Source of the DNA: Roseimicrobium gellanilyticum
GTDB lineage: Bacteria > Verrucomicrobiota > Verrucomicrobiia > Verrucomicrobiales > Verrucomicrobiaceae
Direction: 5' to 3'
Length of the DNA: 64,000 bases
NCBI RefSeq assembly: GCF_003315205.1
Contig: NZ_QNRR01000005.1
Span: forward strand, 372,001 to 436,000
Part shown: piece by piece, positions 1,550 to 20,125 of the stretch
Layout of the letters: each line of letters opens with the position of its first letter
How positions within the stretch are numbered: the stretch's first letter is position 1
Program-made: the position numbers and the translations under genes
Notes under the pieces: generated by a model
Seen by the model: the letters and a program-made list of their open reading frames with translations, nothing else
Told to the model about the DNA's origin: nothing
Database searches by the model: none

Positions 1550-4222
1550 TCACTCGAGAGAGCAGGTGAAAACACGGAAGTTGAGGATGCGCGGTTCTCC
1601 GCGAGGCGAGGGCAGTCCACCGCCTTCCACATGGAGTTGGCAGACTTCGTTCGGCAGCAGTGGTCGGGACAGCTTGAGCTGCAGCTCAGCGTAGGTGTGG
1701 ATGTGAGTGCTTGCCAGCACTTCACCGTCCTTGGCGCGCACCTCCAGGGTGGCTCCGTCTTCTCCCGCACCGGGTCCACACTCCACGGTAAGCCGGAGAG
1801 TCTCAACGGATGTCGACCAGATGCCAGGCTTGATTTCCGCATCGTTGGTCACCCACCGGAAGGTTTTGCCATCGTATCGCTCCAGAGGATGCCAGTTTTC
1901 ACCCAGCACTGTTCCCGGTTCTGTAACGTCTGATCTTTTCCGTGCGGGGAAGGCCCGTTTCACGGTGCCGGCGCGGTAGGCCTTGAGCACCGGGGGGGCA
2001 GTCGCACCAGGCTCGACTGCGGCGAAGTGGAAACGAAAGCTCTGCAGGCGTTGGGGATCGAGTGGGAGCTTCACCTGTGTTCTTCCCTCCTTGGGCAGGC
2101 GGATCTTCGCGACTTCGGCTCCTTGATCATTGTGGATGGAGAAGTCCATGGCCAGCTTCTCATAGTCCGAGTCTGGCTTGATACTGAGCGAGAGGTCGAG
2201 GCTCGTCCGGCCCGCGGGATTCACCCAGATGGTGGCATCGTTCTGGAACTCGCGAGATAGCCTCTCGTTTTTGGAGATCCGGCGTTCACCCCACCTCTCG
2301 CCGAGCAAGACACCGGGAGTGAAATCAAAGACGTCAGGCGTGCCGTCGCTCCATTTGGGTAAGCGGAAGATGGGAAGCGGGTTGATGACACCGGGATGCA
2401 GAAGATTCAGCGGACGATACAGACGCGCGGCATCGGGGGCTTCGGCGATGAGCGCTGGCGGCAGCTCCGTGATCAGCCGTGTGGTGCCGTCATAGGAAAG
2501 GCGGAAGGCCACGAGGTTCTCGTATCCATATTCCCCTGAGACGATGAATTCATGGGTGGGAATGATTCCCTTGGGGCCAATCTTGCCAGTGACTTCCGTG
2601 GAGCTGCCATTCACAATGTAGGACGGAGCGCCCAGCACCAGCTCGCTGACGCGGTTCATGTGATAGAGGCCGCCCAGAGGGCTGGAGATACCGTCATCAA
2701 GGACGAACAGCACGGCACTGCCGGGTTCCAGTCGCGGAGACAGCGAGTGGATCTGTTCGAAGACGGAGGTCACCTTTTCGAAGGTGATGCTGGAAATGCG
2801 CCTCTCGTATTGCTGGGAGGTGAAGGTGGCGATGCTGGTGACGCCTGCGATGCCTGCGATGAGCAGGCTCGTTCCGGCACCTCTCCAGCGTACCGGCAGG
2901 AAGGAACCGGCGAGGCACACCAGCGCCGCAAAACAGACCGACTCTCCGGCAGAGGCCAGGAAGTGCGTGCGGAACAAATGAGGGATGTGCAGAAACGGGA
3001 GGAAACCGAAAATCATCGCACCGCCCGCGGCCAAAGCCGCGAACAAAAGTGCCTTCCGTGACGGGCCAGTGGGCTCTGCAGTCGCCAACCGGGGCGCCAG
3101 CCACAAGACCAGCAAGACCATGACAGATACCCCTGCAGCAGCAGGCCAGTACTCCCACAAGGCACCCCGCAAGTTGAAGTACTCGAGGAAAGCCGTCAGG
3201 TGGACCTTGATGGCCGTGGCGATATCGATGTGGCCATGGCTGCCCTTCGTCTGACGCAGCTGGTAGACGTCGCCACCTTTGGAGAGAAGAAACTGAACGA
3301 AGCGGCTGGCAAAGAGCGCCACGGTGCCATTCCATGCGAAGAACCAGAGAAATCCATGCCTGCGGTCCTGCCAGTAACGGTAGACCAGGAATGACAGGAC
3401 CCCTGCCAGTGGGAAGAGTCCTTCCGTGCCCAGAAGGGCCACGCCCAGAGAGAAGCATGCGGCAAAGAGCAGCACTCGGCTGCGGCGTCGGCTGGACACC
3501 AGAAACAACCATGTGGCCAGCAGGATGAAGCACAGCGGACCCCAGTAGAGGCTGGTGGTCCACATGATCATGAAGCGGGAAAGGTCCCCGCGATTCAGAA
3601 CCATCATCACACCCGCAGCCACGGGAAGGATGCGGTCCTTGGGAAGCAATTCGCGAACCACGCCCATCAGGAAGACACCGTTCGCAAGGCACAACAGCGA
3701 GGCCACGATGAGCTGCCCCTCAATCCGGTCAGGGGTGAGCTGGCGTCCGAGCCAGTAGTAGATCATGTTGAGGGGACGGCTCAACCCCTTGTCAAACCCG
3801 GATGACCAGACCTCGCTGCGAAGCATCTGAATCTCATCACCACCACCCCAGAAATGGATCGTGAGAGGGATGAAGAAGGTGACTACGGTGACGCCGGCCA
3901 GCAACAGGATGGTGAGAACCCAGCGCCAGGCGTGCCAGGGTTCCGGCGCGGCGACTGTGAGCGATTCTTCCTTACCAGCCATACGGTTCCAAAGAACCAG
4001 CAGTGCGAGTGTTCCCACGGGGAAGCCAATCATCCAGGGCCACCCCATCAGAATCGGGGAGTGCCGTAGGAAGATCAATGGAAGGGCGAACCAGACGAGG
4101 AGCAGGAGCACCATGCCCAGATCAAGAGCCAGCTTTCGGGTAAAGAATTTCGATGGTTCCGCCACACGTTCCATAATTAGCGCCCAGGAGAGAGCGGCGC
4201 ACACAAAGCATTTTCGGCTCAT
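1550..4222 (-). CDS. large polytopic membrane protein, possible GT-C-like transferase
   Basis: This protein has 890 residues. Roughly the first half holds about 11-12 hydrophobic segments; the second half is soluble and rich in beta-type sequence. A loop after the first membrane segments carries an acidic GGGDEIQ motif near residue 110 and SRPLNMIYYW, as expected for the first periplasmic loop of GT-C enzymes that use lipid-linked sugars; this is an inference from position and acidity. The neighbouring ArnC-like gene would make such a donor. I do not recognise a named family. Translation could also start at the ATG at 4174 (residue 17). The C-terminal half may be two beta-sandwich, carbohydrate-binding-like modules. 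Confidence 0.75.
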   Translation of the reverse strand: MSRKCFVCAALSWALIMERVAEPSKFFTRKLALDLGMVLLLLVWFALPLIFLRHSPILMGWPWMIGFPVGTLALLVLWNRMAGKEESLTVAAPEPWHAWRWVLTILLLAGVTVVTFFIPLTIHFWGGGDEIQMLRSEVWSSGFDKGLSRPLNMIYYWLGRQLTPDRIEGQLIVASLLCLANGVFLMGVVRELLPKDRILPVAAGVMMVLNRGDLSRFMIMWTTSLYWGPLCFILLATWLFLVSSRRRSRVLLFAACFSLGVALLGTEGLFPLAGVLSFLVYRYWQDRRHGFLWFFAWNGTVALFASRFVQFLLSKGGDVYQLRQTKGSHGHIDIATAIKVHLTAFLEYFNLRGALWEYWPAAAGVSVMVLLVLWLAPRLATAEPTGPSRKALLFAALAAGGAMIFGFLPFLHIPHLFRTHFLASAGESVCFAALVCLAGSFLPVRWRGAGTSLLIAGIAGVTSIATFTSQQYERRISSITFEKVTSVFEQIHSLSPRLEPGSAVLFVLDDGISSPLGGLYHMNRVSELVLGAPSYIVNGSSTEVTGKIGPKGIIPTHEFIVSGEYGYENLVAFRLSYDGTTRLITELPPALIAEAPDAARLYRPLNLLHPGVINPLPIFRLPKWSDGTPDVFDFTPGVLLGERWGERRISKNERLSREFQNDATIWVNPAGRTSLDLSLSIKPDSDYEKLAMDFSIHNDQGAEVAKIRLPKEGRTQVKLPLDPQRLQSFRFHFAAVEPGATAPPVLKAYRAGTVKRAFPARKRSDVTEPGTVLGENWHPLERYDGKTFRWVTNDAEIKPGIWSTSVETLRLTVECGPGAGEDGATLEVRAKDGEVLASTHIHTYAELQLKLSRPLLPNEVCQLHVEGGGLPSPRGEPRILNFRVFTCSLE

Positions 4223-4371: not shown

Positions 4372-5565
4372 GTGAACATTCTTTTCGCCAACTACGGCCA
4401 GTCTGACAATAACAGCGCATATCACATCGTCGGCTTCGCGAGTGGTCTGGCTGCCCGTGGTCACGACGTCTGCGTGGCGGTGGCAAAGTCCGTGCCGGAC
4501 GGGCAGTTTGAGTCGGTGGGTGGTTTCCGCATGGCGTCCCATCGTACGGCTCTGAAGACGGGCTTTACCTTTGCAGATGGTCGTTCCGCGGATGTCCTTC
4601 ACGTCTGGACGCCGCGGGAGACGATGAGGCTCTTTGCCAGCGCGCATGCTGCGGCGTGGGGGCATGCCTCGCTGGTGGTGCATCTGGAGGACAATGAGGA
4701 GGCGATCTTTGAAAGGTTCACGGGCTGCTCGCTGGAAAAGGCCTGTACGCTTGATGAGCCCTGGCCCAAGGGCCTCATCCACCCGGTTCACTACCGCGGC
4801 TTTTTGAAGTCCGCTCAGGGGGTTACCATGGTACACCGGTGCCTGGAGCCGCTTGTGCCTTCGGAACTTCCGAGGCAGGAAATCGTTCCCGTGATGGACT
4901 TCCGCTTCTTCACCAACGGGGGGGAAAGTCACGCCCTTCGCCGGGAGCTCGGCATCGCCCCGACAACGCGGGTCGTCGTTTTTAATGGCAACGATCACGC
5001 TGCTGCCGCTCTGGATATTCGCCAGCTCTATGAGGCGGTGGATCTGCTGATTGAGGAGGGCATGGATCTGGCATTCGTGCGCACGGGGCACGTCCTGCCT
5101 GCGAACTACGACGGCCTCCATTTCCGTCCCGGCTCCCGTTGCCATGAACTGGGGTTCGTGGAGCGGGGCATGGTCCCTGAAATCATGAGCCTGGCAGACG
5201 TAGCCGTGCAGCCCGGGGATGGTGATTATTTCAATGCCCACCGGCTTCCGGCCAAGGTCCCGGAATACCTCGCCATGGGCAAGCCGTTGGTGATGGGTGA
5301 AACAAACATCGGCCGTGAGCTTGCTGCGGCGGATGCGGCATTGATTCTTCCGGGCATGTCGCCTCGTCAGATGGCTGATGCCATTGCCCGGTTGTTGAAC
5401 GCGCCCACCGAAACCGCAGCCATGGCGGTGCGAGGGCGTGAGTTTGCACGGAGCCGGTTTTCGAGGGATGCGGTGATTCCGCTGTTGGAAAGGTTCTACC
5501 AGAAGTGTCTGCCGGCACCGGCGGTGACACGACCTCAAGTAGGCTCCTGTCAGCTTCGCCGCTGA
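4372..5565 (+). CDS. GT4-like (GT-B fold) glycosyltransferase
   Basis: The 397-residue protein begins with NILFANYGQSDNNSAYHIVGFASGLAARGHDV, the N-terminal Rossmann strand and first helix of GT-B glycosyltransferases. The C-terminal half has HELGFVERGMVPEIMSLADVAVQPG and LPAKVPEYLAMGKPLVMG, the nucleotide-sugar-binding block of the GT4 group. The GTG at 4372 is chosen because GAGG lies seven bases upstream and because the frame before it has only a TTG start and no good site. It is divergent from the membrane protein and leads a plus-strand run of GT2-FkbM fusions and an NRPS. The sugar is unknown. Confidence 0.82.
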   Translation: MNILFANYGQSDNNSAYHIVGFASGLAARGHDVCVAVAKSVPDGQFESVGGFRMASHRTALKTGFTFADGRSADVLHVWTPRETMRLFASAHAAAWGHASLVVHLEDNEEAIFERFTGCSLEKACTLDEPWPKGLIHPVHYRGFLKSAQGVTMVHRCLEPLVPSELPRQEIVPVMDFRFFTNGGESHALRRELGIAPTTRVVVFNGNDHAAAALDIRQLYEAVDLLIEEGMDLAFVRTGHVLPANYDGLHFRPGSRCHELGFVERGMVPEIMSLADVAVQPGDGDYFNAHRLPAKVPEYLAMGKPLVMGETNIGRELAAADAALILPGMSPRQMADAIARLLNAPTETAAMAVRGREFARSRFSRDAVIPLLERFYQKCLPAPAVTRPQVGSCQLRR

Positions 5566-5631: not shown

Positions 5632-7833
5632 ATGACTCGCCCTCGCTTCAGTGTTGTCATTCCCACGCGCAATGCGGAAGCGACTCTGGGAGCCACGTTG
5701 AGGACCTGCCTGGAGCAGGAGTTCGAGGACTACGAGATACTCGTCTCCGACAACAGCGCCACGACTGCCACACAGGAGCTGCTCGCAGGTATCAATTCTT
5801 CCAGGATTCGCTGCGTGCGACCGGACAGGACACTGTCCATGCAGGAGAACTGGGAGTTTGCCGTGGAGCAGGCGCAGGGAGAGTTCGTCCTGGTGTTGGG
5901 CAGCGATGATGGTCTCATGCTGCATTCTCTCAGGGAATTGGACCGTCTCTTGAGAATGCTGGACACCAAGCTGCTGCGCTGGGACTCCGTATGCTACCAC
6001 TGGCCGACCGTGCCCGTCCAGGCGCAGCTCCCACCGAATGCGCTTCTGCTGCCATTGAAGCAGATGGATTCCTATCATCCCATTCGCTGGAGGGATTCGC
6101 GAGCCGTGATGTTGGACGCAGCCCATGGAAGGGTGAGCTACGCCGAACTTCCCACGGTGTACTCCTCAGCCGTGCACCACAGCCTTCTGGATGAATTGAG
6201 AAAGCAGACCGGCAAGGTCTTCCATGGTGACTGCCCGGATGTGTACAGCGGATTTGCCCTGGCACACCTTGTGAAGCGTTATTGCTCCCTGGATGCGCCC
6301 CTGTCCATCAATGGGCTCTCAGGTGTGAGCAACGGCGTGGCGACCATCTTCTTGAAGAACAGCTCTCCGATCGCAGAGGACTTTAACGCATTGAACCATG
6401 CGAGAAAGGCCGGACGTGGATGGCAGGAGTGGATTCCTGATCTTTCCCTGTTTTCCACCTGCAGCGCGCACTCGTTTCAGTGTGCCAAGGAGCGCTTGTT
6501 TCCCGAGGATGCAGAACTTTCAATGTGTCGCAGGGAGCTGGCGCAGCGCGTCATGCGCGAGTATCGCTCAGCGAGTGAGACCGAGTGGCAGATGGTGCGT
6601 GGAGCCGTGCGAAAGAGCATGGTGGATGACGCCTCGCTGCTGGCGTGGTTTGACTCGGAATACGCGGATAAATCACTGGCTGCCTGCCCGCCAGCGGATC
6701 GGTACCCGCTGAAGCACTATGGGGGTGCGTACATGCAACTGGATGCCGCGGAGTTTGGTGTGAAGGACGTGTGGGAGGCGGCTCTGCTGTGCGAAAAACT
6801 GCTGGGCTATCGCCAGGAGGGCATCAATGCACACCTGAAGGCAGACGGTGCTACAGCGCTGGAGAGATCGAAGACAAACAATGGTGCCGTGCCCGGAGCG
6901 CCGCGCGAGGGTCTGTATCAGCAGGAGACCGAAGTTGCGATTCTGAAGATCCTCGCTGGAAAGGTGACACGAAAAACCTTCATCGATGTAGGTGCGGAGA
7001 AGGGCTCCTTTGCCAGGGAATTTCTGAAGCTGGGATTTGACGGCGTATTGTTTGAGCCCTTTGCAACGCACCTGCCCGTGCTGGAAAAATTGGTGTCCGG
7101 CACGCGCTCCAAGGTGTTGCCTCTGGCGATCGATGCCACGGATCACGAAGGTCAATTGCATATTGCAACGGATCAGGCGGGGCAGCCGCTGGAGTATTTT
7201 CATTCCCTGCAGCCAGCGCCATCCGCGACGAACTTTTTTCACGGCGCGGCAGTGCCAGTCACCTGCCGTTCTCTGGAGAGCCTGGTGCGTGAAGGGACGA
7301 TTGCGCGAGACGTTGGGATCTTGAAGATCGATACCGAGGGCAACGATTTGCGAGTATTGCAGGGCATGGGACCCGTGCGTGCGGAGGTCTTGATGTGCGA
7401 ATACGTGACCCCCAGATTGTATCCCGACTGGTCATGCTCATTTCCTGAGGGAGTGATGGATGCAGCCAAAGCGATGGGGTATGAACATTGCATAGCGGTG
7501 AGCCGCTTCGACGAGCATGAGGTGGTGGAAAACGATCCAGTTCACTTTGTGGACGGTCAGTGGGGTAATCTTATCTTCATTTCCGATGCGCTCCTGCGCT
7601 CCGCTCAGAAGGAGATCGACGACATCCAGCGTTATGTGCATCGTGAGCATGTGAAAGCCTGTCTGCGAGATCACCAGGTCCTTCTGGAAAAGGAGGCCCG
7701 CATCCAGGATCAGGCGACAGTCTGCCTGGATCAGCAGAGACGGCTGGATGAACGCAGAGCCAAGATCGAAGAGTTGAAGGTCAAGAACGCAGTCCTGAAA
7801 GAAAAGAATGAGCGCCTGCGCACACGCTGCTGA
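5632..7833 (+). CDS. GT2 glycosyltransferase - FkbM methyltransferase fusion, copy 1
   Basis: This is a 733-residue two-enzyme fusion. Residues 1-230 are a GT2 domain (FSVVIPTRNAEATL, metal site GSDDG at 90-94). Residues about 448-660 are an FkbM-type SAM methyltransferase, with FIDVGAEKGSFARE as the SAM loop and ILKIDTEGND as the later conserved block. A middle segment (about 230-440) is unassigned. The last 50 residues are rich in Lys, Glu and Leu and look like a coiled coil. The chain could add a sugar and then O-methylate the product. The next gene is a close tandem copy. No clear ribosome binding site is seen; the ATG sits right at the GT2 strand. Confidence 0.88.
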   Translation: MTRPRFSVVIPTRNAEATLGATLRTCLEQEFEDYEILVSDNSATTATQELLAGINSSRIRCVRPDRTLSMQENWEFAVEQAQGEFVLVLGSDDGLMLHSLRELDRLLRMLDTKLLRWDSVCYHWPTVPVQAQLPPNALLLPLKQMDSYHPIRWRDSRAVMLDAAHGRVSYAELPTVYSSAVHHSLLDELRKQTGKVFHGDCPDVYSGFALAHLVKRYCSLDAPLSINGLSGVSNGVATIFLKNSSPIAEDFNALNHARKAGRGWQEWIPDLSLFSTCSAHSFQCAKERLFPEDAELSMCRRELAQRVMREYRSASETEWQMVRGAVRKSMVDDASLLAWFDSEYADKSLAACPPADRYPLKHYGGAYMQLDAAEFGVKDVWEAALLCEKLLGYRQEGINAHLKADGATALERSKTNNGAVPGAPREGLYQQETEVAILKILAGKVTRKTFIDVGAEKGSFAREFLKLGFDGVLFEPFATHLPVLEKLVSGTRSKVLPLAIDATDHEGQLHIATDQAGQPLEYFHSLQPAPSATNFFHGAAVPVTCRSLESLVREGTIARDVGILKIDTEGNDLRVLQGMGPVRAEVLMCEYVTPRLYPDWSCSFPEGVMDAAKAMGYEHCIAVSRFDEHEVVENDPVHFVDGQWGNLIFISDALLRSAQKEIDDIQRYVHREHVKACLRDHQVLLEKEARIQDQATVCLDQQRRLDERRAKIEELKVKNAVLKEKNERLRTRC

Positions 7834-7923: not shown

Positions 7924-10185
7924 ATGACTCGTCCGCGCTTCAGTGTTGTCATTCCCACTCGCAATGCAGCAGTGACCCTGGAGGCAACACTGAAGACCTG
8001 CATTGAACAGGACTTTGAAGATTATGAAATTGTCGTGTCGGACAACGGCGACACCACTGCCACGCAGGAACGGATTGAGGGCATCAATTCTCCGAGGATT
8101 CGCCGCGTTCGACCGGATCGAACGCTGGCCATGCAGGAGAACTGGGAGTTTGCCGTGGAGCAGGCGCAGGGGGAGTTCATCCTGGTGCTGGGCAGTGACG
8201 ATGGCCTGATGCTGCATTCGCTCAGGGAATTGGATCGACTCCTGAGAAAGCTGGATACGAAACTGCTGCGTTGGGATGCCGTGTGCTACAACTGGCCAAA
8301 CCTGCCTGTGCAGGAGCATGCGGCGCCCAACACCTTGCTGCTTCCCTTGAAGCAGGTGGGCTACTACCATCCCATCCGCTCACGCGACTCACGGCAGGTC
8401 ATGCTGGACGTGGTCAATGGCAAGATCAGCTATGCCGAGCTGCCCACGGTGTATGTGTCCGTTGTGCATCGCAGTCTGTTTGATGCCTTGCGGAAACGGA
8501 CCGGAAAGGTATTTCATAGCGATTGCCCGGATGTGTACAGCGGATTTGCCCTGGCTCATCTGGTGAGGAAGTATTGGACGGTGGATGCGCCCCTATCCAT
8601 CAGTGCGCTTTCAGGCGCCAGCAACGGAGTGGCAGTGCTCTACCTGAAGAACCAGTCCAACATTGCGCGGGATTTCTCGACGCTCAACCAGTCCCGAAAA
8701 ACGGGTCGCGACTGGCCAGCATGGATACCTGATCTTCCGATCTTCAGTTCGTACAGCGCGGAGTCGTTCCATTGTGCCAAGGCGGCGTTGTTCCCGAACG
8801 ACACAGAGATGCAGGTGGATCGACAGCAATTGGTGCGATTGGCCATGAGCGAGTATCGCTCGGCAGACGAGACCGAGTGGCAGATGTTACGCGAAGTCGT
8901 GCGGAAGAGTACGGCGGACGACGCTGCGCTGCTGGCGTGGTTTGACGCGGAGTACGGAGGCAAATCGCTCGTGACCTGTCCCCCTGCACCGCTGCATCAG
9001 TTGAAACGGTACGGTGGTCCCTACATGCAGCTGGATGCGGCGGAGTTCGGCGTGAAAGACGTGTGGGAGGCGGCGCTGTTGTGCGAAAAGGTACTGGGTT
9101 ATCACCGCGATGGAATCAACGCGCACGTGCACCAAGAGCAGATCGCCAGTCCTTCAAGCGTATCTGTGGCCGCTGGCACTGCCAGTCCCGGTCCGGTCGC
9201 TGTCGATACTCCGCGCGATGGTGTGTACCAGCAGGAGACGGAGGCGATGTTGCTGAAGAGCCTCGCTGGAAAGGTGACACGGAAGACCTTCATCGACGTG
9301 GGTGCAGAAAAAGGTTCTTTTGCCAGGGAGCTTCTTGAACTTGGGTTTGACGGCGTGTTGTTTGAGCCCTTTTCAGCCCACCTGCCCGTGCTGGAGGAGT
9401 TGGTGTCCCACACCCGTTCCAAAGTATTTCCCTTCGCGATCGATGCCACGGATCACGAAGGTCGGTTGCACATTGCCACGGACGAGGCCGGGCAGCCGCT
9501 GGACTACTTCCATTCTTTGCAAGCAGCTCCATCGGCGACACTCTTCCATCATGACGAAGGAGTGCCGGTCATTTGCCGCTCCCTGGAGAGTCTGGCACAG
9601 GAGGGCGTGATAGCCCCCGAGGTTGGAGTTTTGAAGATCGACACCGAGGGAAATGACCTGCGAGTGCTGCAGGGGATGGGAGTGGTGCGCGCGGAGGTCC
9701 TGATGTGCGAGTACGTGACTCCACAACTGTATCCAGATTGGTCGTGCTCCTTCCCTGATGCCTTGATGGCCGCAGCCAGAGCCATGGGATATGAGCACTG
9801 CATTGCAGTGAGCCGCTTCGATGAGCATGAAGTTGTGGAACTCGATCCCGTGCATTTTGTGGATGGGCAGTGGGGCAATCTCATCTTCACCTCCGCAGCG
9901 ATACTGCATTCTGCCCGAATTGATGTGGAAAAAATTCGTGCATGTCGACAGGAACATCACGTGAAGCTCTGTTTCAGGGAGCACTTGGAACTCTTCCAGA
10001 AAGAAGATATGATTCAGGACCAGGCGAGGCAGCTTCACGAAAAGGAGGCTGTCATTCGTCAACTGGCCGATGCCCTTGAGAATTTGCAGACAGAGCTGGG
10101 TGCGAAACATGCCAAGATCGCGGAACTCAAAGACAAGGTCACGCTGCTCAAGGAAAAAAACGAAAACCTGCGAATGAAGCGCTAA
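7924..10185 (+). CDS. GT2 glycosyltransferase - FkbM methyltransferase fusion, copy 2
   Basis: The 753-residue paralogue has the same layout as the previous gene: GT2 at 1-230 (GSDDG at 90-94), an unassigned middle, FkbM methyltransferase from about residue 454, and a longer C-terminal coiled coil from about 685. Most residues match copy 1 by eye, including long stretches of near-identical DNA, so this is a fairly recent tandem duplication. The clearest divergence lies in the linker before the FkbM domain, where copy 2 has an Ala/Ser/Pro-rich insertion. The start is the ATG at 7924 before TRPRFSVVIP, matching copy 1; an upstream frame extension has no counterpart in copy 1. The pair may act on successive sugars. 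Confidence 0.88.
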   Translation: MTRPRFSVVIPTRNAAVTLEATLKTCIEQDFEDYEIVVSDNGDTTATQERIEGINSPRIRRVRPDRTLAMQENWEFAVEQAQGEFILVLGSDDGLMLHSLRELDRLLRKLDTKLLRWDAVCYNWPNLPVQEHAAPNTLLLPLKQVGYYHPIRSRDSRQVMLDVVNGKISYAELPTVYVSVVHRSLFDALRKRTGKVFHSDCPDVYSGFALAHLVRKYWTVDAPLSISALSGASNGVAVLYLKNQSNIARDFSTLNQSRKTGRDWPAWIPDLPIFSSYSAESFHCAKAALFPNDTEMQVDRQQLVRLAMSEYRSADETEWQMLREVVRKSTADDAALLAWFDAEYGGKSLVTCPPAPLHQLKRYGGPYMQLDAAEFGVKDVWEAALLCEKVLGYHRDGINAHVHQEQIASPSSVSVAAGTASPGPVAVDTPRDGVYQQETEAMLLKSLAGKVTRKTFIDVGAEKGSFARELLELGFDGVLFEPFSAHLPVLEELVSHTRSKVFPFAIDATDHEGRLHIATDEAGQPLDYFHSLQAAPSATLFHHDEGVPVICRSLESLAQEGVIAPEVGVLKIDTEGNDLRVLQGMGVVRAEVLMCEYVTPQLYPDWSCSFPDALMAAARAMGYEHCIAVSRFDEHEVVELDPVHFVDGQWGNLIFTSAAILHSARIDVEKIRACRQEHHVKLCFREHLELFQKEDMIQDQARQLHEKEAVIRQLADALENLQTELGAKHAKIAELKDKVTLLKEKNENLRMKR

Positions 10186-10254
10186 GAAGCGGTTGGTCTA
10201 TTCGTCAACATATGACAGTAGACCCGGCGCCGCGGAAGCGGCGGAGAAAACGTT

Positions 10255-13200
10255 GTGGCCCTGCCACGGCATTTTTGTGAGCTGCTCGAAATGGAAGATC
10301 CAACATACGCCTCGCTCTCCCCCATGCAGAAGGGGATGCTCGCAGACCATCTGAGGCATGCCGAACCCGGGTTGGACCTGCTGCAGATTTTCTGTGAAGC
10401 CCACGAGCGACTGGACCCAAAGATCTTTGAGCAGGCATGGAATGTAGTGGTGAACAGGCATGATCTCCTGCGAAGCCGGTTTCTTTGGGAGGAGGTGGAT
10501 GAGCCAGTGCGGGAAGTGTTGCCGAGCATCCGGATGCCTTTTGTCGAGCTGGATTGGAGGGACTCTTCAGGAAGGGAGCAGTCGGCCCGTTTCGAAGCTT
10601 TCTTCCGGGAGGATCGCCGCAGTGGCATGTCACTCACTGAGGCTCCGCTCCTGCGCATGACATTGGTCCGCATGGGCAGGAAGTTGTGGAGATGGTGTCT
10701 CACCATCCATCACCTGCTTCTCGACGCGCGCGGCATGCTCCTGCTGCTGGATGAGCTTTACCCTGTCTATGAGAGCCTGCTGGCAGGGACCGAGCCGGTG
10801 CTCCCGCCCGCGTCACATTTCGGTGACTATGTGGCGTGGCACAGGCAGCAGGACTGGTCTTCGGCGGAAGCCTGGTGGCGCCAGCAGCTTTCCGGATTCA
10901 TCAAACCGACCCCGGCTCCTTTTCAGAACATGCAGGGGTGTGGTGAAGGTGATTGCTGGGGCGACCACCTCGTGGAACTCCCGGCGCGAGTGACACGCGG
11001 ACTCGCGGGGCTTGCCGCGCGCGCCGACGTGACGCTCAATACCGTGCTGCAGGGCGCGTGGGCGCTGGTCCTGGGCAGATGCAATGGGGAGGGCGATGTG
11101 GTGTTTGGCGCTGTACGGGCCTGCCGCAAATCCAATGTTACCTCCGCGCCCACGTCGGTGGGGCTTTTCGTCAATACCCTCCCGGTCCGTGTGGACATCT
11201 CCCCGGAGAACGAGCTGATTCCGTGGCTTGGGTCATTGCGCAGACAATGGAGGGCGATGGGTGCTTTTGAGAATGTGCCACTCTCCCATGTGCAGAGATG
11301 GAGCGAGGTGCCGCGTGGCGAGCGTCTCCTTGAGTGCATTTTCAACTACCAGGAACCCAGTTGGGACAAGGTACTGGGAAGCCGGGGCGGAGCATGGCGT
11401 CGCCGCCGTTTTGGACTTCGATGCCAGACGTCTTATCCACTGACTCTCGATGTCTATGGAGGTGGTGGCTCGCTGGAGTTGAATCTGGTGTATGATCGCC
11501 GTGCACTCAGCGCGGACTCCATCAGCCAACTGATGAAATGCCTGGAGGAGGTGCTTGCCAGCATGGCGTCATCTCGTGGAGGCCGACTTGGGGACATTGA
11601 AATGGTGAGCAAAGCCACGAGGCACCAAGTCGTCACGGCCTGGAACAAGACCGCGCGTCGCTATCCGAAGAAATGTGTCCACGAACTCTTTGAGCTGCAG
11701 GCGAAACGGATGCCGGATGCCGTGGCGGCAACAGTCAATGCGGAGTCCATCACCTATTACAAGCTGAACCTCCGGGCCAATCGCCTGGGACGTCATCTGC
11801 GCCGTCTGGGCGTGGGACCGGGTACGATGGTGGCTGTCTGCCTGGAACGCTCACTGGATCTGCTCGCCGCACTCCTGGGGGTGATGAAGGCGGGAGGCGC
11901 CTATGTGCCTCTGGATCCTGAATATCCCACAGAGAGACTTGCCTTCATGCTTGAGGACACGGGTGCGCCGCTGGTGCTGACGGTTTCCCGCCTTGCGTCG
12001 CGTCTACCTGCCACTGTGGCGAAAGTGGTCTTGCTGGACACGGATTGGCCCGAGATCAAACTCCAAAGCAGCGACGGCTTCCAGAGTCTTGTCGACGCGG
12101 AGTCTGTTGCTTATGTCATCTACACCTCAGGATCCACGGGCCGGCCCAAAGGGGTGGTGGTGCCCCATCGGGGAATTGCGCGCCTGGTGATCAATGCCGA
12201 CTACGCAAGCATCTCCGCTGACGACGTGTTCTTGCAGGCGGCTCCGGTGTCGTTCGATGCCTCCACATTCGAGATTTGGGGTGCCCTGCTTAATGGTGCA
12301 CGCGTTGAGATTCTTCCAGCGGGCAGATTCGCCATTGAGGATCTCGCGAGGTTCATCCAGGCGCAGCGAGTCACGACGATGTTCGTCACCACAGCGTTGT
12401 TCCAGCAGTTGACGGAGCTCCACAGTGATGCGCTGGGAGGAGTAAGACAGCTCCTTACCGGTGGGGAGACCATGCCGGTGGAGACCATGCGTCGGGCGTT
12501 GCAGAGCCTGCCAGGTACCCGCATCATCCATTGCTACGGCCCCACGGAAAACACCACGTTCACGACGTGTCTTGCCATTGAGTCCGTGGACAAGGACGCG
12601 GGTTCCATTCCCATCGGACGTCCCATTGCCAACACCTCCGTCTACGTACTTGACTCCCAACTTCGGCCCGTGCCTCCCGGCGTGCCTGGCGAGTTGTATG
12701 CGGGCGGAGATGGCCTGGCGCATGGCTATTTGAACCGGCCAGAATTGACGGAGGAGCGTTTCATCACGCACCCGTTGGGCAGTGGGAGTGTGGGTCGGCT
12801 CTATCGGACGGGAGATGTGGTGCGCTGGTTGCCGGACGGCACGATCGACTTCATTGGCCGCGTCGATCATCAGGTAAAGATCCGTGGTCATCGGATCGAA
12901 CTCGGAGAGATTGAGTCCGCACTCTGCAGTCATGGGGACGTGCGCGATGCCGTGGTGCTGGTGCGTGAAGAATGCCCAGGCAACAAGCGACTCACGGCCT
13001 TCTTGTCGCTCTTCCGGAAACTGTCCATTCGCGAGATCCGAAGGTACCTGGAGAGCAGGCTGCCGGCTTACATGATTCCATCCGTTTTCGTGCCATTGGA
13101 ATCGCTGCCCTTGAATTCAAATGGGAAGGTGGATCGCAGAGCGTTACTCGCTCTCCTGATGACGAAGGAGTCGGAGACTGGTGACGATGCCCAGGAGGCT

Positions 13201-14817
13201 GTGACAAGGGTGGCGCCCAGGACAGAGACGGAGGACATCGTGGCCTCCATCTGGTCTGAAGTGCTGGAGATACCCCTGGTTGGTATGCAGGATCACTTCT
13301 TTGAACTTGGAGGTCATTCTCTGCTCGCCATGACGACCGTTTCGAAAGTGCGCAAGGCACTGCACAAATCCTTCCAGGTGCGTGTTCTGTTTGAGAATCC
13401 GGTGCTCGAGGACTTCTGCATCGCCTTGCAGAAGGTTGGATTGGGAAGTGCTGATGAGCTGACGACACCCATCACGAAGGTTGCCTTAAAAGGGCCTCCT
13501 CAGGCGTCGTCCTTTCAGGAGCGAATCTGGTCTGGCTACCTACACCGCAAGCCCGACGATGCAGCCAATCTGCTGGTGTGCTTCCGCCTGAAAGGAGCAC
13601 TGGATGTAAAGGCCCTCGAGCAGAGCCTGACGGAAGTCGTGAGGAGGCATGACATCTTGCGCACCCGGCTGGAAGGGCAGCAGGGAAGAATGGTCCAGAA
13701 CATCGCTCCTGCGGAACCGGTGACGGTGGAAGTCCTTGCTCTGAGCCGCGCACCCAGGCGCTCACCTGAGCTGTCGAAGCTCATCAGCGGTATCACCCAT
13801 GCTACGCTTGATGATGGCACGGGACCGATGCTCCGCTTTACCCTGCTACAGTGGAGCGAGTCACGGCACCTTCTCCTCGTCATTTTTCACCCGCTGACGT
13901 ACGACTCCAGTGTCCGCCGCATTTTGCTTCGCGAGCTGGAGGTGCTGTACGCCGCGCATAAGGAAGACCGGCAGGCATTGCTTCCAGAGCCCACGTTGCA
14001 GTATGCGGACTTTGCCGTCTGGCAACAGAAGTGGCTGGGCAAGGACACCGTCGCTCGCAGAAGGTTGCTCAACCACTGGACGCAAGTCCTCGACAGCGAG
14101 AAACTGCCTGCGGTCGAACTTCCCTTTCCAAGGACGTCACCCGGGGAGGCCACGGCGGAGGAGTCCGTGCTCTGGATGCTCTTCAAACGTACCACTACGA
14201 GTCAGGCGAGGCATTTTGCGAAGGAGCATGGAGCCACGTTGTTCATGCTCCTTCTGGCCTGTGCGAAGGTCCTCCTGTACCGCCGTACCCGCCAGACGGA
14301 CATGCTCGTGGGGACGTACTTCGCGAGTCAGAGCCATTCCGAGATGGAGTGCGTCATGGGGCCAAGATCGAACCTCGTGGTGCTGCGCACGAATCTCTCC
14401 GACAATCCTACATTCTCCAATATTCTCCTGCGCGTGCGTGAGGTGGTCCTGGACGCACAGGCTCATCAGGACATGCCGTTTGAGCACTTGTGTGCCGCCT
14501 TGCATGCGTGTGGGAAGCCTGTGCCACCCATCGAGGCCCTGTTCATGCACACGCATGTGGAGTGGCCCATTCTGCGTCTCGAAGGCATTCGAACCCACCA
14601 ATCAACGATCCTTGGTGGATCGATACCGTGGGGATTCTCCATCAACTTCCTCAGCCGTGAAGATAGATCGGACTTCCTCCGGGCCTGTTGCGTTTTTGAT
14701 GCGCGCAGGTACGAACCTGAAGAGGTCCGTAAGTTTGTGTCGGCACTCGTGTCGATGGTAGAGACCGTCATCGCGCGCCCATCCGTCACACTGGATGAAC
14801 TGGCCATCCGCGCATAG
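10255..14817 (+). CDS. non-ribosomal peptide synthetase, C-A-T-C
   Basis: The 1520-residue synthetase reads: condensation domain (about 15-430, HHLLLDA at 152-158), adenylation domain (about 460-1000, core YTSGSTGRPKG at 623-633, YRTGDVVRW, NGKVDRR with the conserved Lys), carrier domain (FELGGHSLL, phosphopantetheine Ser1022) and a second condensation-like domain (about 1085-1515). In the last domain the active-site motif reads HPLTYDS at 1212-1218, so the catalytic second His is Pro. Hand alignment to GrsA gives a binding-pocket code near D-A-F-F-L-G-C-T-F-K, suggesting a hydrophobic amino acid, with low certainty. There is no thioesterase or reductase. The GTG start has GGAG eight bases upstream. 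It lies among glycosyltransferases 70 bases after copy 2. Confidence 0.95.
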   Translation: MALPRHFCELLEMEDPTYASLSPMQKGMLADHLRHAEPGLDLLQIFCEAHERLDPKIFEQAWNVVVNRHDLLRSRFLWEEVDEPVREVLPSIRMPFVELDWRDSSGREQSARFEAFFREDRRSGMSLTEAPLLRMTLVRMGRKLWRWCLTIHHLLLDARGMLLLLDELYPVYESLLAGTEPVLPPASHFGDYVAWHRQQDWSSAEAWWRQQLSGFIKPTPAPFQNMQGCGEGDCWGDHLVELPARVTRGLAGLAARADVTLNTVLQGAWALVLGRCNGEGDVVFGAVRACRKSNVTSAPTSVGLFVNTLPVRVDISPENELIPWLGSLRRQWRAMGAFENVPLSHVQRWSEVPRGERLLECIFNYQEPSWDKVLGSRGGAWRRRRFGLRCQTSYPLTLDVYGGGGSLELNLVYDRRALSADSISQLMKCLEEVLASMASSRGGRLGDIEMVSKATRHQVVTAWNKTARRYPKKCVHELFELQAKRMPDAVAATVNAESITYYKLNLRANRLGRHLRRLGVGPGTMVAVCLERSLDLLAALLGVMKAGGAYVPLDPEYPTERLAFMLEDTGAPLVLTVSRLASRLPATVAKVVLLDTDWPEIKLQSSDGFQSLVDAESVAYVIYTSGSTGRPKGVVVPHRGIARLVINADYASISADDVFLQAAPVSFDASTFEIWGALLNGARVEILPAGRFAIEDLARFIQAQRVTTMFVTTALFQQLTELHSDALGGVRQLLTGGETMPVETMRRALQSLPGTRIIHCYGPTENTTFTTCLAIESVDKDAGSIPIGRPIANTSVYVLDSQLRPVPPGVPGELYAGGDGLAHGYLNRPELTEERFITHPLGSGSVGRLYRTGDVVRWLPDGTIDFIGRVDHQVKIRGHRIELGEIESALCSHGDVRDAVVLVREECPGNKRLTAFLSLFRKLSIREIRRYLESRLPAYMIPSVFVPLESLPLNSNGKVDRRALLALLMTKESETGDDAQEAVTRVAPRTETEDIVASIWSEVLEIPLVGMQDHFFELGGHSLLAMTTVSKVRKALHKSFQVRVLFENPVLEDFCIALQKVGLGSADELTTPITKVALKGPPQASSFQERIWSGYLHRKPDDAANLLVCFRLKGALDVKALEQSLTEVVRRHDILRTRLEGQQGRMVQNIAPAEPVTVEVLALSRAPRRSPELSKLISGITHATLDDGTGPMLRFTLLQWSESRHLLLVIFHPLTYDSSVRRILLRELEVLYAAHKEDRQALLPEPTLQYADFAVWQQKWLGKDTVARRRLLNHWTQVLDSEKLPAVELPFPRTSPGEATAEESVLWMLFKRTTTSQARHFAKEHGATLFMLLLACAKVLLYRRTRQTDMLVGTYFASQSHSEMECVMGPRSNLVVLRTNLSDNPTFSNILLRVREVVLDAQAHQDMPFEHLCAALHACGKPVPPIEALFMHTHVEWPILRLEGIRTHQSTILGGSIPWGFSINFLSREDRSDFLRACCVFDARRYEPEEVRKFVSALVSMVETVIARPSVTLDELAIRA

Positions 14818-14846: not shown

Positions 14847-16163
14847 CTACCAGCGGATGCCCCAGCGCAGAAGGCGGTCGCACCATGCGGCGTTTGCCTG
14901 GTAGAGTACGACGTGATGGCCCAGGCGCTCCTCGGAGAACGACGATCCCAGCTCACGCATACGCAGCTTGGCCATCTCGGCAAAGCCGGTGGTGGTAATC
15001 TCCGCGCTGGACTTTTGAAGGTCGTGAACGCGGAAGCACCCCAGGCACCAGGGGAGACGCTTGATGCGCGCTCCGGCCCGCTGGAAGCGCAGCAGTAAGT
15101 CCCAGTCGAAGGCGAACTTGAAGCTCTCATCGAGGTGGCCACCGCACTTCTCCCAGAGGCTGCGGCGCCAGAACAATGTCTCCTGGGGGATGTAGTCAGC
15201 CCACAGTAACATCTCGCCATTGTGGCGCGGCAGTACCCAGCGGCCGACCTGCCAGTCGCGTTCATTGATGATGAGACGATGACCGTAGATGGCGTCCACT
15301 TCGGGGTGAGTGGCAAAATAATGAGCCACGTAGTGGAGGGCGCCCGGAGCGAGGAGGTCGTCCGAGTTCAGCCATGCCATGATCTCGCCTTTGGAGCGGG
15401 TGAAGCCCTTGTTGATCGCATTGGCAGGACCGGTGTCCTTTTCACTTCCCCAAGACGCCAGCTTGTCTGCGTGCTTCTCGATGATGTCCACGGAGCCGTC
15501 CTTGCTGCCACCGTCCCACACGTGGTAGTCGAGCCGGGGATAATCCTGGCTCAGAATGCTATGCAAGGTGCGCTCCAGGAAATCAGCCTGCTGATAAGAG
15601 GGCGTCACCATGCTGATGAGGGGCCATGACTCCGGTGGTCCGGGAGGCAGGACCTTCGGTATGGAGTCCAGCTTCAGAGGCTTGGGGTCATGCTGGCGCA
15701 GCACCCCCAGGCGCATCTCTGTCTTCCAAACCCTGTCCTTGAGCTTCAGGAAGCGGTTCACGCGGCTGGGGTCTTCCAACACGGGAGCCACGATGCATCC
15801 ACGGCGGGTGAGACTGCGGTGCACGGCTTCCTCATACGAGCGGAGGTCTGAGCGCATGAGGCGATAGCGCGTTTCCCAGTTCCAGGCCTCATGCCTGTCG
15901 TGCCGGGCTTGTACCTTCGTCTGCTTGAGCTCGCGCTTCAGCTGCACCACGCGCTTGCGCAATTCCTTGTGCCGGACGTTGCGTTTGTCTGTGGTTTCCT
16001 TCATGCGCCGCATCACTTCCATCTGCTGTTCCGAATGGGCTTGGAGGGCCTTCAGATCGATGGATGGAGCCGCAGCGTGTCCGGGAGTTCCATTGGCGCC
16101 GTCGCTCCGGCTGGTGGCGCGTCGCAGCAGCCATCGTGCAAGGAGATCATCAAGGCGTGCCAT
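14847..16163 (-). CDS. GT2 family glycosyltransferase with N-terminal coiled coil
   Basis: The 438-residue protein has a charged, helix-prone N-terminal part (about residues 25-90, EQQMEVMRRMKETTDK and a following Lys/Arg-rich stretch). The GT2 domain begins at PLISMVTPSYQQADFLERTL. VWDGGSKDGS, EKDTGPANAINKG and the metal motif LNSDD are typical of GT2 enzymes in capsule and O-antigen loci. The start at 16163 leaves 19 bases after the upstream methyltransferase; the longer frame would overlap it. It is convergent with the NRPS gene, 29 bases apart, and probably belongs to the same glycan locus. The specific sugar is not predictable. Confidence 0.87.
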   Translation of the reverse strand: MARLDDLLARWLLRRATSRSDGANGTPGHAAAPSIDLKALQAHSEQQMEVMRRMKETTDKRNVRHKELRKRVVQLKRELKQTKVQARHDRHEAWNWETRYRLMRSDLRSYEEAVHRSLTRRGCIVAPVLEDPSRVNRFLKLKDRVWKTEMRLGVLRQHDPKPLKLDSIPKVLPPGPPESWPLISMVTPSYQQADFLERTLHSILSQDYPRLDYHVWDGGSKDGSVDIIEKHADKLASWGSEKDTGPANAINKGFTRSKGEIMAWLNSDDLLAPGALHYVAHYFATHPEVDAIYGHRLIINERDWQVGRWVLPRHNGEMLLWADYIPQETLFWRRSLWEKCGGHLDESFKFAFDWDLLLRFQRAGARIKRLPWCLGCFRVHDLQKSSAEITTTGFAEMAKLRMRELGSSFSEERLGHHVVLYQANAAWCDRLLRWGIRW

Positions 16164-16182: not shown

Positions 16183-16767
16183 CTAGCGGCGTCGACGCAG
16201 CACCGCAAGGTGCTTGTCCACGAACTTGCCGGGGGTCAGTAATTTGCGGGAATCTTCATTGTGATGCGTGAGCACGAGCTCGGCTCCGAGGTTCTGCAGC
16301 GCATCCAGTGCGAGTTGATGTTCCTTGTCAAAATAGCTCGTGATGACCAGCAGGCCATCCTCGCCCACCTTGGTGAGGCCTTCTTCGAAGATGCGCTTCC
16401 ACAGCTCCGGGCCGTGCCAGAAGTTTTGATGGCGGAGCAGCACCATGTCGAAGTTCTCACCCAGCTCCTTGTGCTTGGAGAGCTTGGTGGCGTCTTCCAG
16501 CAGAAACTCAGCGGGAAGGTGGGCGTGATTCTCCCGTGCCTGCAGGATCTCGCGGATTCGGATGTCTGCACCAATCAACTTCACGTCGCCACTGGTCTGC
16601 GCCCTGGCAAAGTTCACCAGAGTCTCTGCCTCATCACATTGCCCGCACGCGATGTTGAGCAGCCTCAGATCCTTGTCCGCCGCCGCTTTTAGATGTGGGG
16701 AAACTTTGTCGCGCAATAGCGCGTTCAGCTTCCGCATGTCCTGGGCAATGGGATGGCTGGCAGACAT
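16183..16767 (-). CDS. class I SAM-dependent methyltransferase
   Basis: This 194-residue protein contains RLLNIACGQCDEAE, the SAM-binding motif I with Cys in place of the more usual Gly, then LIGADIR (motif II acid) and FDMVLLRHQNFW (motif IV region). The fold should be Rossmann-like. The substrate is unknown; motif IV lacks the DPPY/NPPF signature of DNA or RNA amino-methylases. It lies directly upstream of a GT2 gene and downstream of trpB on the same strand, 17 bases after the trpB stop, so it may be co-transcribed with either. Confidence 0.78.
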   Translation of the reverse strand: MSASHPIAQDMRKLNALLRDKVSPHLKAAADKDLRLLNIACGQCDEAETLVNFARAQTSGDVKLIGADIRIREILQARENHAHLPAEFLLEDATKLSKHKELGENFDMVLLRHQNFWHGPELWKRIFEEGLTKVGEDGLLVITSYFDKEHQLALDALQNLGAELVLTHHNEDSRKLLTPGKFVDKHLAVLRRRR

Positions 16768-16784
16768 GGAATGAAACGAACAGG

Positions 16785-18002
16785 CTAGAAGTTCATGCTC
16801 TCACCGAAGACATGGCGCGCAGCGGAGGCCACGTCCTTGTCACCACGACCGCTGAGGTTGGCGAGGATGATCTCGTCCTTTTGCATCGTCGGGGCGATCT
16901 TCTTCACGTAGGCCATCGCATGCGCGCTTTCGAGCGCAGGGATGATCCCCTCGTACTTGGAAAGAGTCTGGAAGGCATCCAGCGTCTCGTCATCCGTGGC
17001 ATACGCATATTCCACGCGGCCCTGGTCATGCAGGTAGGCATGTTCGGGTCCGATGGCAGGATAGTCCAAGCCGGCACTCACAGAGTGGGTCAGCTGGATC
17101 TGGCCATCTTCATTGGCCAGCAGCCAGGTCTTTGTGCCTTGCAGCACGCCGAGGCGCCCCCCTTGGAAACGCGCAGCATGCTTCTCCGGCTTGATGCCTT
17201 CGCCACCGGCTTCCACGCCGACCATGCGCACATCCTTGTCACCCAGGAACGGATGGAAAAGCCCGATGCTATTGCTGCCACCACCGACGCAGGCCACGAG
17301 CAGATCCGGCAGGCGTTGTTCACGCTCCAGGATTTGCCGACGTGCTTCGACACCGATGACACGGTGGAAGTCGCGCACGATCATGGGGAAGGGATGCGAG
17401 CCCAGAGCGCTGCCGAGAATGTAATGCGTGGTGCGCACATTCGTCACCCAGTCACGCATGGCCTCATTCACCGCTTCCTTGAGCGTCGCCTGACCGGCCG
17501 TCACTGGCACGACCTTGGCGCCGAGGAAACGCATGCGGGCGACATTGAGCGCCTGGCGCTCCATGTCCACACTGCCCATGTAGATGACGCACTCGAGATT
17601 GAACTTCGCACACACCGTGGCCGTGGCCACGCCGTGCTGACCAGCACCGGTCTCGGCGATGATGCGCTTCTTGCCCAGCCGGATGGCGAGCAGGGCCTGA
17701 CCGAGGGCGTTGTTGATCTTGTGCGCGCCCGTGTGGAGCAGGTCTTCGCGCTTCAGGTAGATCTTGGCACCGCCGAGTTCCTTGGACCAACGCTCGGCAA
17801 AGTAGAGCGGCGTCGGACGGCCCACGTACTCGCCCAAAAGGCGGTCGAGTTCGGCCTGGAAGGCGGGATCCTTCCGGGCGCGCTCGTATTCGTGGGTAAG
17901 CTCCGTAAGAGCCGCCATGAGGGTTTCCGGGACAAACATGCCTCCATACTGGCCAAAGTGGCCGTGGGCATCTGGCAGGGCGGAAGGGGCGGGGGCGCTC
18001 AT
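16785..18002 (-). CDS. trpB: tryptophan synthase beta subunit
   Basis: The 405-residue enzyme joins indole and L-serine to form tryptophan with pyridoxal phosphate, normally in an alpha2-beta2 complex with Trp[16 protein letters not shown] at the N-terminus, [20 protein letters not shown] around the PLP lysine (Lys95), and GGGSNSIG, the phosphate-binding glycine loop, are all intact. Length is normal for the TrpB1 type. The ATG at 18002 before [16 protein letters not shown] is preferred over one seven codons upstream. No trpA or other trp gene is in the window, so the pathway genes are dispersed here. Confidence 0.97.
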
Positions 18003-18066: not shown

Positions 18067-19110
18067 TCAGGCCTCCAGCTGGAATGCGTTGTCCCCCAGC
18101 AGGGCATTCAGGGCACGGCGGTAGGGGCTGGGCATGGGGAGGTCCGGCAGATCATCATGCGAAATGACACGGACGGATGCACTCTCTTCCAACGCAGGGC
18201 GCTTTTTTTCAACAGGGGCTTCATGCACCCATAGCGTGACCCGGTAGCGGGTGATGGTGTAGCGGGACTTGTGGAGTACCCCGGGCAGCTTCTCGCACTC
18301 CGGCAGGGCGGGCAGCTTCCACAGGCCGGTGCGTCTCGCGCCGGTCTCCTGCTGCAGCAGCACCCCCTCTTCCGTGCGGTGGAAGAAGACACGCTCCGTC
18401 ACTTCCGTGGCTGAAGCACGGGCGCCCTTGACCGGGAGAGAGGTGGGCTCCTCGGCAAGGCAGTACTTCTGCACCGGGCACTGCCCGCAGGTGGGGGAGG
18501 AGACGCGGCACACCGTCTGACCGAGTTCCATGAGTGCGCTGTTGTGGGTACGGGCACTGGGGGAAGCCTTCACCAGCAACTCGGCCCGCTCCCAGAGCTT
18601 GGTTTGGCCCTCGGTGGAGTCCACGGGTGTAGCGTCGTTGCAAAGGCGTGCCAGGACACGCGCCACGTTGCCATCCACAATGGGCGCTGCCTGGTCATGG
18701 GCGAAACTCATCACTGCGCCTGCCGTGTAGCGGCCCACGCCCGGCAGAGCATGTATCTCCTCCAGTGTCTTTGGAAACACACCTCCGTGCCGTTCCATCA
18801 CGGTCCGCGCCATTTGTTGCAGGAAACGCGCGCGCCGGTAGTAGCCCAGGCCTTCCCACGTGCGGAGTACCTCTGCCTCCTCCGCCTTGGCCAGCGTCCG
18901 CACATCCGGGAAACGCTCCATCCACCGGGTGTAGTAGCCCTTGCCCAGTACCGTGGGGATCTGTGTCTGTTGCAGCATCATCTCAGACACGAGGATGGCG
19001 TATGGATCCGTGGTGCGGCGCCAGGGGTAGTCTTTCGCGTTCGCCGCGAACCATGCACCCAGGGCTTGGGCGAATGCCTCCGGGTGCTGTAGCGGCGATT
19101 GTTTTGGCAT
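18067..19110 (-). CDS. mutY: A/G-specific adenine DNA glycosylase
   Basis: The 347-residue base-excision repair enzyme removes adenine mispaired with 8-oxoguanine. DYPWRRTTDPY, SEMMLQQTQIPTV (catalytic Glu), the helix-hairpin-helix LPGVGRYTAGAV and VDGNVARVLAR (catalytic Asp) follow in order. The iron-sulfur loop has the expected C-x6-C-x2-C-x5-C spacing at CRVSSPTCGQCPVQKYC. The C-terminal 100 residues are the NUDIX-like domain that recognises 8-oxoG. The ATG at 19110 is chosen because it precedes the conserved domain and leaves an 82-base divergent promoter region to rnhC. Confidence 0.96.
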   Translation of the reverse strand: MPKQSPLQHPEAFAQALGAWFAANAKDYPWRRTTDPYAILVSEMMLQQTQIPTVLGKGYYTRWMERFPDVRTLAKAEEAEVLRTWEGLGYYRRARFLQQMARTVMERHGGVFPKTLEEIHALPGVGRYTAGAVMSFAHDQAAPIVDGNVARVLARLCNDATPVDSTEGQTKLWERAELLVKASPSARTHNSALMELGQTVCRVSSPTCGQCPVQKYCLAEEPTSLPVKGARASATEVTERVFFHRTEEGVLLQQETGARRTGLWKLPALPECEKLPGVLHKSRYTITRYRVTLWVHEAPVEKKRPALEESASVRVISHDDLPDLPMPSPYRRALNALLGDNAFQLEA

Positions 19111-19192: not shown

Positions 19193-20125
19193 ATGCCCGC
19201 ACCTGCACTCACCACCTATACCAAGGTCATCACGGAACTTCAGGCTGCGAAACTCCGATCCATCTTGGAGGAGAAAGGCTGGGAGTTCGAAGCAAAGCCT
19301 TATACCCTCTACGCCGCTGCCGGGCCGAAGGTGAATGTCGCCGTGTATGAAAAGGGACCCAAGGTCGTGCTGCAGGGGAAGGGGATTGAGGACTTCATTA
19401 AATTCACGTTTGAGCCCGAGGTGCTGGGCGCGGCGGAACTGGGCTATGAGGAGGTGCACAATCCCTCCATGTTCGCTCCCCACATCGGGGTGGATGAAAG
19501 CGGCAAGGGTGATTTCTTCGGTCCACTCGTCATCGCTGGCGCTTATGTAGATGCGGACATGGCGCGCACGCTCCGGGAGATGGGCGTGGTGGATAGCAAG
19601 CGCATCGGCTCCGATGCAAAGATCTACGAACTCGCGCGGGACATGCGCCAGGCGCAGGTGATTCACGAGACGATCGTCATCGGTCCGGAGCGTTACAACG
19701 AGCTATATGCCAAATTTGGAAACCTGAACAAGCTGCTCGCCTGGGGGCATGCCAGGATCATTGAGAACATGCTGGCACGTGTACCCGACTGCCCACGTGC
19801 TCTGTCTGACCAGTTTGCCAATCCCCGCGTGCTTCAGCAGGCGCTTCAAGAAAAGGGGCGTGGAATTATTTTGGAACAGCGGACAAAAGCCGAAAGTGAC
19901 CCCGCAGTGGCGGCTGCTTCCATCTTCGCACGGGAAAAATTCGTGCAATGGCTCGACCAAAATAGCCCTAAAATCGGCTTTACTCTCGGCAAGGGTGTTT
20001 CCGCATCCGTAAAAGCCACAGGCGTAAAAATTGTGCAAAAGCTTGGAGTTGAAGGGCTTGCAAAATTCTCAAAAATGCACTTCAGAACGGCGCAAGAGGT
20101 ATCTGCCGCATCCTCAAGCACATAG
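19193..20125 (+). CDS. rnhC: ribonuclease HIII
   Basis: The 310-residue enzyme cleaves RNA in RNA-DNA hybrids. The N-terminal 80 residues are the TBP-like substrate-binding domain that marks HIII against HII (KVNVAVYEKGPKVVLQGKG). The catalytic domain opens with IGVDESGKGDFFGPLVIAG, which contains the first two acidic residues of the DEDE set, followed by GVVDSKRI and later ESDPAVAAASIFAREKF. It is divergent from mutY. The ATG at 19193 is the only start fitting the family length. The tail of the gene is more A/T-rich than its front. Confidence 0.95.
   Translation: MPAPALTTYTKVITELQAAKLRSILEEKGWEFEAKPYTLYAAAGPKVNVAVYEKGPKVVLQGKGIEDFIKFTFEPEVLGAAELGYEEVHNPSMFAPHIGVDESGKGDFFGPLVIAGAYVDADMARTLREMGVVDSKRIGSDAKIYELARDMRQAQVIHETIVIGPERYNELYAKFGNLNKLLAWGHARIIENMLARVPDCPRALSDQFANPRVLQQALQEKGRGIILEQRTKAESDPAVAAASIFAREKFVQWLDQNSPKIGFTLGKGVSASVKATGVKIVQKLGVEGLAKFSKMHFRTAQEVSAASSST

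Follow-up and report, generated by a model that had tools for sequence, protein, structure and literature searches.

The window, a stretch of 64,000 nucleotides from the genome of Roseimicrobium gellanilyticum, carries a one-module NRPS gene at 10255..14817 (+) whose protein has the architecture C-A-T-C. That such a synthetase is present and intact had been proposed in a first-pass annotation of the sequence, and this is borne out by the open reading frame and by Pfam. The gene is probably a solitary one, placed at the junction between a glycan region and a housekeeping block and needed by neither side. It is quite likely to be independent of the glycan genes, judging by one sister genome and one homologue, and the tempting but weak claim that the NRPS acts on a glycan is removed. 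Our best explanation, which as a whole statement we consider about evenly balanced between right and wrong, is that this accessory one-module NRPS makes an acyl-Val/Ile-like unit that is handed on in trans. The protein is probably an ordinary small-metabolite enzyme. Terminal-C release is already known from other systems. Read from its motifs, the oddity of the NRPS is that the terminal condensation domain has HPxxxDS instead of HHxxxDG.

The synthetase and its condensation domains

The reading frame runs for 1520 codons without a stop. It begins with GTG, and GGAG, a ribosome-binding-like site in the sequence, lies 8 bases 5′ of this start (10243..10246, +). On the 1520-aa protein, Pfam recognises two Condensation domains, AMP-binding, AMP-binding_C, and PP-binding, all above cut-off. 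C, A and T follow each other in order with their core motifs and so make up a single NRPS module, after which the protein ends in a further C domain, the same protein having neither TE nor R. A search of the wider contig set with the NRPS as query gave no orthologue, the only matches being distant NRPS (28–37%) in Cyanobacteria, Xenorhabdus, Rheinheimera, and Actinomycetes.

The N-terminal condensation domain, C1 (10309..11628, +), is assigned by Pfam and alignment and bears the motif HHLLLDA. Its best solved relatives are the C domains of PvdL (E2-C3-A3 construct), McyB, and bacitracin synthase 3; in the tree its companions are a C domain from Xenorhabdus and N-terminal C domains, and it is not part of the large group containing C2. 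The A domain (11689..13128, +) has its core motifs A3 (YTSGSTGRPKG), A5 (YGPTE), and A10 (NGKVD) intact. Its 10-residue code is DAFFLGCTFK, which we take to be Val/Ile-like, as is typical of branched aliphatic substrates; motifs, in part with the help of a GrsA fragment, served to map the code positions, and the substrate call is based only on this code. The T (PCP) domain (13240..13419, +; Pfam and motif) contains FELGGHSL with the phosphopantetheine Ser.

The terminal condensation domain, C2 (13504..14805, +), has an LCL-like fold according to alignment, trees, and a structure model. Its C3 motif, placed by alignment at 13888..13908 (+), is His1212-Pro1213-Leu-Thr-Tyr-Asp1217-Ser1218. C2 thus reads HPLTYDS where HHxxxDG is expected, and the second (catalytic) His has become Pro, encoded by CCG at 13891-13893; Pro1213 lies opposite the second His in both the HMMER and the MAFFT alignments. 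The catalytic second His of a releasing terminal C domain is, therefore, missing. When compared with the CFAA motif, (D/H)HxxxDS with the second His, C2 has the Ser after Asp and lacks the His. Nor does it have the features of an X domain, namely HRxxxDD and a position before the TE in a glycopeptide NRPS, since its motif is HPxxxDS and there is no TE.

Because the second His is replaced, C2 may not catalyse; going by the motif, catalytic inactivity is likely, not certain. The second His is >99% conserved even among divergent fatty-acid-amide C domains (PMC13142362), and mutating it does not always abolish C-domain activity (review, PMC11546977). Modelled from just five sequences (mean pLDDT 75), the structure of C2 shows a complete C fold. 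Its best structural matches are Txo2, DhbF, HtmB2-CT, PCP-C didomains, and X domains.

The terminal C domain of the NRPS is not unique, as its sequence has clade relatives in the same genome and elsewhere. The clade was recovered in quick trees with SH-aLRT support and no bootstrap. In the first tree, C2 groups with the terminal C domain of an MT-A-T-C protein of the same genome and with those of T-C proteins (SH-aLRT 100, five domains). In the second, which had fewer other rows and included no X domain, the T-C proteins of genomes G002 and G378 are added and the support is 96 for seven domains. A clade of eight domains that includes the terminal C of a C-A-T-C protein of genome G018 has SH-aLRT 86. 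The clade spans three protein architectures in these genomes, every member seen is the last domain of its own protein, and the motifs of the other members are mostly intact. This recurrence in three architectures provides a testable case for TE-free release and for a C-domain role without the second His.

Proposed release in trans and the other NRPS genes of the genome

The absence of a release domain and of a phosphopantetheinyl transferase, also pointed out in the first-pass annotation, holds at the locus, where TE, reductase, and PPTase were found neither within the NRPS gene nor adjoining it. It does not hold genome-wide. Three genes of the PPTase family occur in the whole genome, and its single NRPS-type TE forms part of an A-T-TE protein whose gene lies on the same contig, 116 kb upstream (G000:C5:266620-269133; L037:8621-11137). 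All five Condensation-family matches of the genome are accounted for as C domains, and none was found to be an E domain.

On the preferred explanation, PPTases encoded elsewhere would prime the T domain and the A domain would load Val/Ile. C1 would then acylate the loaded residue with an acyl donor, which is likelier than a D-aminoacyl donor because no E domain was detected in the genome. The product would leave in trans, C2 being met by one of two acceptors, the separate A-T-TE protein or a small amine, in the manner of terminal-C release. Alternatively, with Pro in place of its second His, C2 could serve as a docking platform only, and another enzyme would release the product.

The genome carries scattered NRPS pieces, since the MT-A-T-C and A-T-TE genes, both missing from the corresponding places in the same-genus genome G001, also stand alone beside conserved genes. 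MT-A-T-C (G000:C1:1020579) stands by itself with moaA on one side and a dksA-like gene on the other; in G001 both neighbours are present, MT-A-T-C is absent, and no NRPS remnant was found at that empty site. The A-T-TE gene lies upstream of comM, where the corresponding gene of G001 is unrelated and encodes a patatin-like protein; G001 has its own A-T-TE elsewhere, only 32% identical to that of the window genome. The T-C gene (C1:265565-267235) shares an operon with genes for a P450 and a FAAL, an arrangement also present in G001 (twice), G002, and G378. Because the other NRPS genes are likewise scattered, the lack of a TE nearby is the general pattern here and is not peculiar to the NRPS locus. 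A literature search on dispersed NRPS assembly lines found nothing relevant. In G002 the FAAL/T-C pair is present, yet neither an A-T module nor an A-T-TE turned up when two A-T proteins were used as queries; at least one terminal C domain of the C2 clade thus probably works with a non-carrier acceptor. It is improbable, at about one level with the glycan hypothesis discussed below, that all these proteins form one scattered TE-poor system, in which C-A-T-C, MT-A-T-C, and T-C with their lineage-specific terminal C domain would all deliver their acyl or aminoacyl chains in trans to a single shared partner or acceptor, the His-less version being the one found here.

Several observations on these gene families were made alongside. 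The three-gene operon of P450, FAAL, and T-C, which has no TE, was seen at L036:5466-10239, L041:5315-10076, L042:5540-10337, L119:5311-10022, and L118:5391-9893; two genera of the family have it, with one further case at class level, and it resembles fatty-acid-amide pathways. Directly upstream of it, at L036:1171-5310 and L041:1112-5167, is encoded a 1380-aa protein with no Pfam family that is 73% identical between the two species. In the window genome a stand-alone C domain adjoins a reducing PKS (L034:8670-17735; KS-AT-DH-MT-ER-KR-ACP, 2564 aa), and neither protein has a TE domain. Orphan A-T-TE (or A-T) proteins with an A domain devoid of Asp235 are encoded at G000:C5:266620-269133, L038:5030-7504, L040:8110-10704, L076:5292-7808, and L077:9254-11725. 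Several of this set have Arg299/Asn330, and three have Cys in the TE motif (GEC).

Genome G018, of genus g2 in the same taxonomic family, encodes a C-A-T-C protein (1521 aa, L038:463-5028), and an A-T-TE gene starts 1 bp after it (L038:5030-7504). The G018 protein resembles the window NRPS in architecture, length, C1 clade, terminal C clade, and Val/Ile-like code. However, its A domain is only 42% identical to that of the window NRPS (code DAFFVGGTFK vs. DAFFLGCTFK), its C2 motif is intact (HHCLCDG vs. HPLTYDS), and its A-T-TE is directly downstream, whereas that of the window genome is remote. The arrangement in G018 speaks for a two-protein line in the window genome as well, in which C-A-T-C and the A-T-TE 116 kb away would yield an acyl-dipeptide-like product that the TE sets free. 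Such a pairing agrees with the finding of exactly one A-T-TE in the genome and with the lack, at the matching positions of G001, of a counterpart to either gene. Nevertheless, we regard it as possible but rather doubtful. The A-T-TE and the G018 partner are of different subfamilies (their A domains are 32% identical and differ in code), and docking domains were not recognised. With Asp235 missing from its A domain, the A-T-TE of the window genome may present an acceptor other than an alpha-amino acid; its TE motif has Cys (GECxA). Moreover, MT-A-T-C ends in a related C domain, and its A domain has Arg299 and Asn330 in common with that of the A-T-TE, so MT-A-T-C may be the real partner.

Another possibility is that the gene is the remnant of a lost larger cluster and makes nothing, C2 having decayed by the change of His to Pro. 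Loss of the C2 motif, the lack of a partner at the locus, and the scatter of single NRPS genes are all in line with this. It appears unlikely, nonetheless, as the frame is uninterrupted, the A and T motifs are intact, and the modelled C2 is a complete fold that matches solved C domains. The coding score of C2 (0.134) is no lower than that of C1 (0.099) and is near that of the nearby GT4 gene (0.141).

The locus in related genomes

Neighbouring genes were delineated with a simple codon-based caller trained on long ORFs of the same genome. To the left of the NRPS there are a GT2 gene (472-1497, −), a gene of the glycan region for an 874-aa protein with no Pfam, NCBIfam, or PDB sequence match (1550-4174, −), a GT4 glycosyltransferase gene (4372..5565, +; 83% identical in G001), and two GT2-FkbM fusions, the first at 5632..7833 (+; 72% identical in G001) and the second at 7972..10185 (+; 67%). 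To the right are a GT2 glycosyltransferase gene (14847..16163, −; 86% identical in G001, where it adjoins the second GT2-FkbM gene), a small methyltransferase (MT) gene (16183-16767, −), trpB (16785-18002, −), mutY (18067-19110, −), and rnhB (19193-20125, +). The outline given in the first-pass annotation, with GT2-FkbM fusions on one side and a GT2/methyltransferase pair on the other, is correct as to the genes, but the MT cannot be counted as clearly a glycan gene. It is the first gene of a block, MT-trpB-mutY-rnhB, that is conserved in genus g2 (G002, G012, and G018) with none of the GT genes alongside, and for this reason it is assigned to that housekeeping block. TrpB was considered as a PLP enzyme supplying an unusual amino acid and rejected: NCBIfam assigns it to tryptophan synthase beta, and the block is housekeeping.

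No classical NRPS cluster surrounds the gene: adjacent tailoring, transport, and release genes are lacking. A full cluster just outside the window, the other possibility raised at first, is likewise absent, as no other C-domain or TE gene was found within 100 kb of the NRPS and the neighbours are GT and housekeeping genes.

In G001 the GT4, both GT2-FkbM, GT2, MT, trpB, mutY, and rnhB genes keep their order and orientation, and the NRPS is absent; the second GT2-FkbM gene stops 22 bp before the GT2 gene. DNA identity between the window and G001 is 72% to the left of the NRPS site and 84% to its right. Repeats at the junction were sought, and none was convincing. Because G001 keeps both flanks without it, the NRPS is a lone accessory gene in a junction that is conserved apart from it; presence and absence being read from one same-genus relative, a gain here and a loss in G001 fit equally. 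The sister genome also differs 5′ of the GT block, where it has genes for SDR, Gfo/Idh, GHMP kinase, nucleotidyltransferase, SIS, HAD, and transaldolase proteins (L075:30-5509). They make up a heptose-like sugar-nucleotide pathway, and the window has other genes in their place; the glycan region itself is therefore variable.

The G018 homologue has as neighbours the A-T-TE, a methyltransferase, and an AraC regulator, and further genes there either have no Pfam match or encode a pilin-like protein, a sulfatase, and an NMT1-like binding protein. No glycosyltransferase was found among them. These two genomes bear directly on the proposal that the NRPS is a functional part of the glycan locus, in which C2 would attach an amino acid or acyl-amide to a sugar that the GT2-FkbM enzymes produce. 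The second GT2-FkbM gene and the NRPS are on the same strand, separated by a 69-bp gap in which a promoter/terminator scan gave matches at chance level only, and a common transcript with the upstream GT genes is a weak possibility. In addition, terminal C domains can transfer onto non-carrier acceptors. Against this, NRPS and glycan genes do not co-occur across relatives: the whole GT block is present in G001 without the NRPS, and the G018 homologue lies beside an A-T-TE without a GT gene. Relatives outside the genus that carry an NRPS of comparable type yielded no full-length homologue of GT2-FkbM, and C2 has no second His. The proposal is thus quite improbable. Related genomes in which the NRPS lies away from glycan genes had been named in the first-pass annotation as grounds for dropping the idea, and this is what the comparison with G001 and G018 shows. 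From the original suggestion of one module and an unusual terminal C domain attaching a unit to a glycan, we retain the module, the odd C domain, the lack of a release domain at the locus, and a possible transfer of an acyl-amide or aminoacyl unit to an acceptor, and give up the tie to the glycan.

Least credible is that C2 is a non-catalytic platform recruiting a tailoring enzyme, as X domains recruit P450s; its second His is replaced as in X domains (HRxxxDD) and these are among its structural matches, but it groups with terminal C domains of mostly intact motif (in a tree without X domains) and the neighbouring genes examined included no P450.

Known release systems

Transfer in trans by an accessory one-module NRPS, our preferred explanation, has several partial models. 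In glidonin C13 (PMC10587159) and ftChyA CT (PMC9622831), a terminal C domain releases the product onto a free acceptor; in these systems and the fatty-acid-amide pathways described next, such an acceptor is an amine or an acid. As proposed for C2, a C domain makes the last bond in both and release is independent of a TE. Unlike the window NRPS, however, they are proven active and belong to longer assembly lines, and glidonin C13 keeps the second His that C2 lacks.

Free-standing C domains in fatty-acid-amide pathways release onto a free amine (PMC13142362). One of them, OaaC, is similar to C2 in having Ser after Asp, its motif being (D/H)HxxxDS, and it needs no acceptor carrier. In contrast to C2, OaaC is free-standing, uses acyl-ACP, and retains the second His. 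In a verrucomicrobial symbiont, PalD of the palmerolide pathway is annotated as having a terminal C domain for release (PMC8739492). It shares with the window NRPS a terminal C domain replacing the TE and comes from the same phylum, but it is part of a PKS-NRPS cluster and its second His is kept. The FAAL, P450, and T-C operons of the same and related genera have a terminal C clade in common with C2 (SH-aLRT 96–100), whereas in these operons, unlike in the window NRPS, FAAL loads a fatty acid and there is no amino-acid A domain.
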